Origin: Haematococcus lacustris | Lineage: Eukaryota > Chlorophyta > Chlorophyceae > Chlamydomonadales > Haematococcaceae | Direction: 5' to 3' | Length of the DNA stretch: 64,000 nucleotides | NCBI GenBank assembly: GCA_030144725.1 | Contig: JASKMD010000015.1 | Coordinates: 7,889,835 to 7,953,834 of the forward strand | In this document: piece by piece, positions 53,913-54,049 of the stretch | Layout of the letters: every line of letters starts with the position of its first letter | How positions within the stretch are numbered: position 1 is the stretch's first letter | The notes under the pieces: model-generated | Databases searched by the model: none | Told to the model about the DNA's origin: nothing | The model's input: the letters and a program-made list of their open reading frames with translations, nothing else | Position numbers and translations under genes: made by a program

Positions 53913-53958
53913 ACCTTGTCTGAGCAACAAACACACATAACCTGGGTAGCATCAAACA

Positions 53959-54037
53959 TGCAAGAGGTCACGGGTTCGATTCCCGTAGTCCCCCATACTC
54001 TGGGGACTTGGTCTAGTGGTATGATTCTCGCTTTGGG
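53959..54037 (+). tRNA. Circularly permuted tRNA-Pro (anticodon UGG)
   Basis: The 3' half comes first: 53959 T38, anticodon-stem GCAAG 53960-53964, variable 53965-53969, T stem ACGGG, loop TTCGATT, CCCGT, acceptor AGTCCCC 53987-53993 and discriminator C 53994. After a 7-nt linker (ATACTCT, 53995-54001) comes the 5' half: acceptor GGGGACT 54002-54008, D arm with A box (TGGTCTAGTGG), anticodon stem CTCGC 54027-54031 and loop TTTGGG to 54037. The acceptor pairs 7/7 and the T stem 5/5. Outer flanks form a bulge-helix-bulge: TTTG (54032-54035) with CAAA (53953-53956), 3-nt bulges CAT (53957-53959) and GGA (54036-54038), then TGC/GCA and ACCC/GGGT. Cutting after the second base of each bulge gives the canonical loop TTTGGGT. 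One C29-A41 mismatch lies in the anticodon stem. Discriminator C fits tRNA-Pro. Confidence 0.87.
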
Positions 54038-54045
54038 ATGCACCC

Positions 54046-54049
54046 TTTT
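54046..54049 (+). terminator. Pol III T-tract terminator after the permuted tRNA
   Basis: TTTT directly follows the BHB flank helix (ACCC at 54042-54045). Confidence 0.6.

Follow-up and report, generated by a model that had tools for sequence, protein, structure and literature searches.

Circularly permuted tRNA-Pro genes in the green alga Haematococcus lacustris: a probably functional type II tRNA-Pro(UGG) gene and its multicopy family

Reviewed permuted tRNAs come from a few algae and one archaeon (Soma 2014, PMC3978253); Table 1 of that review lists 34 permuted tRNA genes in seven organisms, with at most two entries per anticodon per species and none for proline, and type II is given there as the usual form in green algae. 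C. reinhardtii, a member of Chlorophyceae, is reported in the same review as being without permuted tRNA, which counts against the reading proposed here for Haematococcus lacustris (Chlorophyceae, Chlamydomonadales). A preliminary description of a 64,000-nucleotide stretch of H. lacustris DNA (the window, meaning the whole stretch analysed) had proposed a circularly permuted tRNA-Pro(UGG) gene with a G37-U38 junction and knew of no report from Chlorophyceae; in the open-licence literature, too, neither a permuted tRNA from this class nor a permuted tRNA-Pro was found described. Those parts of the proposal that are visible in DNA were supported by the present analysis, and the locus is very probably a working nuclear gene for tRNA-Pro(UGG), circularly permuted in the type II (37/38) manner; in this genome 37 permuted tRNA-Pro genes have both halves whole (10 UGG, 27 AGG), this one included. 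The kind of gene is already known; lineage, amino acid and copy number appear to be new as far as the literature was searched.

The locus was read directly on the forward strand of the window. The 3' half of the tRNA (T38 to C73, 36 nt, 53959-53994, B box 53973-53983) lies upstream of the 5' half (G1 to G37, 36 nt, 54002-54037, A box 54009-54019, anticodon TGG at 54034-54036), and between the two acceptor-stem ends stands a 7-nt linker (ATACTCT, 53995-54001) that contains no T4. The order of the halves, the fully paired acceptor stem (7/7) and T stem (5/5) and the position of the B box before the A box had all been claimed beforehand and were found as described. When the sequence was rotated to normal order and CCA was appended, ARAGORN called tRNA-Pro(tgg), in agreement with the earlier anticodon assignment; in genomic order, no tRNA was returned from the whole window by ARAGORN and nothing by Rfam at gathering score. 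Judged by the order of its halves and by the rotated cloverleaf, the locus is a type II circularly permuted tRNA gene. N73 is C, as is expected for eukaryotic tRNA-Pro. Three details were absent from the preliminary description: a C.A mismatch at pair 29-41 of the anticodon stem (54029 with 53962), present in 10/10 UGG copies; a T.T mismatch at 13-22 of the D stem in the window copy; and the membership of the locus in a gene family. AGG copies have a normal pair at 29-41, unlike the UGG copies.

For the family search, a permuted-order pattern with free anticodon was run on the 308-Mb genome and gave 39 exact matches (10 forward, 29 reverse) against 0 for the reversed control pattern, so the permuted order is not due to chance; a 201-base BLASTN query that included the gene found 40 matches in the same genome. 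Whole halves were present in 37 of the 39 pattern matches (10 with TGG for UGG, 27 AGG); in the other two (L045 and L046) the first part of the 3' half is replaced, and in the 40th BLAST match (L047) the 3' half has decayed. ARAGORN called a tRNA in 0/37 permuted copies in genomic order, and tRNA-Pro(tgg) and tRNA-Pro(agg) on rotated copies; since such genes are missed by this program, other green-algal genomes with 'missing' isoacceptors are worth rechecking. Both halves are identical in 10/10 UGG copies: of the 72 mature sites, 0 vary among the UGG copies and 2 among the 27 AGG copies (one copy each). Leader sites vary at 19/24 (UGG) and 21/24 (AGG), trailer sites at 21/22 and 22/22, and linkers (7-18 nt across the 37 copies) occur in 9 distinct forms in UGG and 15 in AGG. 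The two isoacceptors differ at 5 sites, including a compensated acceptor pair (G4-C69 versus A4-U69). Only tRNA-Pro was found when 210,285 bases were scanned for other permuted isotypes, and the permuted pattern gave 0 matches in viral_contigs and 0 in genome_contigs, collections from which records near the H. lacustris genome may have been left out.

Near-invariant mature halves amid variable surroundings suggest, at the level of sequence, selection on the product. The main competing explanation takes the copies for dead relics or tRNA-derived repeats, spread in permuted form by duplication or retrotransposition and unexpressed; it draws on the high copy number, with some copies in repeated units on one contig (C175), on the three broken copies named above and on the presence of retroelements in the genome. 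A dead repeat would, however, decay evenly, and the 37 copies combine near-invariant halves with variable linkers and flanks. Gene conversion might contribute to the sameness of the halves, but on its own it would not preserve the pairing between the flanks, which was analysed as follows.

In the window, the leader strand of the putative bulge-helix-bulge motif (BHB; 53944-53958, delimited by pairing and by covariation across copies) consists of an outer-helix strand (53944-53951, A53948 bulged), the H-helix sequence CAAA (53953-53956) and the bulge bases CA (53957-53958). The trailer strand (54038-54045, delimited by sequence, folding and leader-trailer swaps) consists of A54038, placed in a bulge, and the outer-helix sequence TGCACCC, which can pair with GGGT(A)GCA of the leader. 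TTTG at positions 32-35 can pair with CAAA, leaving as bulges G36-G37 with the following A and C-A with the following T38. The preliminary description had given two 3-nt bulges around a 4-bp helix; the 4-bp helix and both bulges can form, and the outer register is ambiguous, as T53952 may pair with A54038 and thereby shrink one bulge to 2 nt. Across the copies, the H helix (leader -6 to -3 with 32-35) can form 4/4 pairs in 33/37 and 3/4 in 4/37. Leader -6 is C in all 37; leader -3 is A or G facing U32 in all 37, a position that we take to be the place of the A-I pair; and leader -5, which faces position 34, is A in 10/10 UGG copies and T in 25/27 AGG copies (C in 2), so that this base follows the isoacceptor and matches N34.

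The outer helix differs in sequence between groups of copies. Because repeated units on C175 account for many of the AGG copies, all copies were grouped by their flanks into 11 subfamilies. On C175, one AGG subfamily (L018-L024 and L040) was found together with another (L029-L032 and L034-L037) in repeated units of a few kb, the two being about 780 bp apart in 7/8 pairs; part of the AGG copy number thus stems from duplication. In the window copy, unconstrained minimum-energy folding of the whole precursor (done on 27 distinct copies) formed the acceptor stem, the T stem and the helix between leader and trailer; many other copies folded otherwise, and the D arm was weak. When the anticodon stem was imposed as a constraint, the 4-bp H helix was still missing from the best fold of several copies, and in the window copy, one of these, a longer outer helix formed instead. 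Because the whole-precursor folds were not decisive, a swap test was made in which leaders were exchanged between the 11 subfamilies within an isoacceptor, using 27 representative copies. A subfamily's own leader-trailer pairing ranked first in 7/11 and second in 4/11. Leader-trailer permutations as good as the true one (itself included) numbered 2/120,960 for the whole pairing and 16/120,960 for the outer helix alone, figures to be read with the similar leaders of subfamilies C and D in mind and with the 11 subfamilies as not fully independent, since some share ancestry. The pairing at the 37/38 junction thus appears, from comparison of the copies, to be kept by compensation, and such compensated pairing, which gene conversion would not keep, speaks against relics.

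Other sources of tRNA-Pro were sought with both rotated sequences as queries against the genome. For UGG, the best 40 of 45 candidates were scored: five were ordinary-order, full-length genes at 85% identity, all tRNA-Pro(CGG), and the remaining scored candidates were halves matched separately, from 35 of the 40 permuted loci already known (39 pattern matches and L047); the 5 left unscored are as many as the known loci missing from the scored list. For AGG, the best 40 of 46 were scored: the five CGG genes came back, here over query positions 7-63, together with halves from 35 of the known permuted loci, among them the five missing from the UGG list; of the 6 unscored, 5 equal the number of known loci missing there, and 1 is a further candidate besides. 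No ordinary-order UGG or AGG gene was present among the scored candidates of either search. In a search of the genome with RF00005, the best 63 of 6,533 candidates were scored and 50 of the 63 looked at; these 50 contained 0 tRNA-Pro, which proves little. tRNA-Pro(CGG) reads CCG only, and an AGG tRNA reads CCU and CCC after A34-to-I editing; with no ordinary UGG or AGG gene found, CCA, CCC and CCU would depend on the permuted genes. The preliminary description had named a pool supplied by normal tRNA-Pro(UGG) genes as an observation that would speak against it; such genes were sought genome-wide and not found among the scored candidates, in which tRNA-Pro(CGG) was the only ordinary form.

These searches detected no nuclear source of tRNA-Pro for CCA, CCC and CCU other than the permuted genes. 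Dead copies fit poorly with this result, as no other source of tRNA-Pro(UGG) or tRNA-Pro(AGG) was detected, and taken together with the invariant halves and the compensated flanks it makes the relic explanation very unlikely. With the permuted genes taken as functional, the cell apparently must make a circular RNA and reopen it for most of its proline tRNA. We consider it likely, with less assurance than for the gene itself, that H. lacustris encodes its CCU, CCC and CCA isoacceptors in permuted form alone, in a dispersed family of many copies in which the mature part is held identical and each copy has its own compensated BHB, and that all cytosolic reading of these codons passes via circular RNA. 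If this is true, a large genome would have come to use permuted genes as the normal version of tRNAs that are essential and in high demand. Most interesting are the two essential isoacceptors that are apparently permuted-only, and the way in which variation among copies displays the BHB rule through natural compensatory changes; the 37 copies would offer ready-made natural tests of the requirements of the splicing endonuclease, and circular precursors, if abundant as the gene number suggests, should ease study of the pathway.

Transcription signals were examined upstream and downstream of the copies. The motif CAWCM, chosen after looking at the data, occurs at -36 to -27 in 36/37 copies (1000 shuffles: mean 2.5, maximum 7); in the window it is CAACA (53925-53929), a putative transcription-start motif. 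In non-redundant sets, KCATC was found within 60 nt upstream of 23/42 ordinary tRNA genes (shuffle mean 5.0, maximum 12) and of 12/16 permuted genes (mean 2.0, maximum 7), which suggests that permuted and ordinary tRNA genes carry the same kind of upstream motif. The TATA-rich DNA said in the preliminary description to precede the gene corresponds to 53882-53909, a putative upstream promoter element before CAACA; TATA-like words at about -50 to -70 occur in 12/37 copies and are absent there from 25/37. The T4 said to follow it (54046-54049) is a putative RNA polymerase III (pol III) terminator, and T4 stands within 22 nt past the 5' half in 35/37 copies (not in L014 and L039). These signals fit upstream-driven pol III transcription, under which the B-before-A order would be harmless; transcription of this kind has been argued for other permuted tRNAs (Soma 2014, PMC3978253).

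The processing pathway that we infer follows known permuted tRNAs. Pol III would start near CAWCM (about -34), under the control of upstream sequence instead of the inverted A and B boxes, and T4 would end transcription. tRNA-splicing endonuclease would then cut both bulges, after G37 and before U38, and the cut ends would be joined by ligation to make a circle, which RNase P and tRNase Z would open by excising the 7-nt linker; CCA would then be added. The UGG product would read CCA, and the AGG sister product, once edited from A34 to I, would read CCU and CCC. The catalytic domain of the splicing endonuclease (PF01974) was found at three places on C90; the L078 piece was closest to Sen34 and gave PF01974 again, and no family was assigned to the L080 piece, which was read on the + strand. 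The tRNA ligase query PF09511 gave 0 matches in H. lacustris, but 0 in the control genomes too, so that this result is uninformative. The order of processing is not visible from DNA alone, and the halves might instead be joined in trans, or serve singly as half-tRNA RNAs, with no circle being formed. Against this, the halves stand 7-18 nt apart with the upstream motif before the pair and the T run after it, and circular intermediates have been described for the same anatomy (Soma 2014, PMC3978253); we hold this course of events to be very improbable, more so than the relic explanation.

Assembly collapse, or a chimera of two ordinary tandem tRNA-Pro genes (the 3' half of one joined to the 5' half of the next), is nearly excluded: neighbouring intron-bearing tandem genes could look alike if their outer halves were missed, and tandem arrays of intron-bearing tRNA genes are reported for C. 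reinhardtii (Soma 2014, PMC3978253), but the window locus has one copy of each half with no further halves beside it in the rotated-sequence search, ARAGORN found a tRNA in 0/8 of the 3-kb loci L001-L008, and 37 loci spread over several contigs repeat this order with different linkers and flanks, so that the collapsed tandem named in the preliminary description as a possible refutation is not credible.

Mobile elements were met at several permuted copies. The 3' end of a LINE with RVT_1 in a 1050-aa frame (L102:480-3629, minus strand) is a (CT)n tract that borders directly on internal tRNA-gene sequence. A search with the last 221 nt of the LINE turned up 187 first-look candidates, and scoring of the best 40 showed 97-100% identity; within 100 nt of 3' flank of these 40 copies (L106-L145, of which L145 is the L046 copy that supplied the query) a B box was found in 31/40 by a loose and in 20/40 by a strict pattern, compared with 2.1% and 0.4% of random window stretches, and among distinct 3' flanks the loose B box was present in 27/36. 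The LINE end replaces the start of the 3' half of the permuted gene in L045 and L046; the displaced start did not turn up in the upstream sequence examined, 7.2 kb (L101) and about 4 kb (L102). In L026, one of the 37 copies, the LINE end sits in the leader, and the strand for the outer helix and the upstream motif are lost to it. Around a LINE copy inside a tRNA-Phe gene (L100), TTATAGCT is duplicated. The family looks like a young non-LTR retrotransposon that targets tRNA genes, with permuted tRNA-Pro genes among those hit. Permutation as protection from mobile elements is discussed by Soma 2014 (PMC3978253); since the LINE also hits permuted genes, such protection would not be full. As a separate observation, an open frame at window 8722-10641 resembles RAP-domain proteins; its 38 protein matches among 8000 scored candidates are all from H. 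lacustris (best 82% identical), and by these matches it belongs to an expanded H. lacustris family.

The closest described genes are the type II genes of prasinophytes (Ostreococcus, Micromonas) and of chlorarachniophyte nucleomorphs, which likewise have the 3' half first, the junction at 37/38 and an hBH-type motif (Maruyama 2010, as reviewed in PMC3978253); in the same account their linkers measure 5-64 nt and some have an AT-rich region upstream, features shared with H. lacustris. With Cyanidioschyzon merolae the H. lacustris genes share the order of the halves, the BHB at the junction and, in most copies, a T stretch past the 5' half (Soma 2007, as reviewed in PMC3978253); the upstream TATA-like element, the linker free of promoter and terminator and the circular intermediate of C. 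merolae have putative counterparts in H. lacustris. Unlike H. lacustris, C. merolae is a red alga with junctions at four different positions, and it is described as almost without recognizable transposons (PMC3978253), whereas the tRNA genes of H. lacustris, both ordinary and permuted, are insertion sites of a LINE family. Permuted tRNA genes also occur in Auxenochlorella (Trebouxiophyceae), a core chlorophyte like H. lacustris, for which tRNAscan-SE is reported to have given an incomplete tRNA set (PMC12636532, PMC12633428). In contrast to the prasinophyte and nucleomorph genes as reviewed (PMC3978253), H. lacustris carries 37 copies with whole halves, for proline UGG and AGG, in a genome of 308 Mb.
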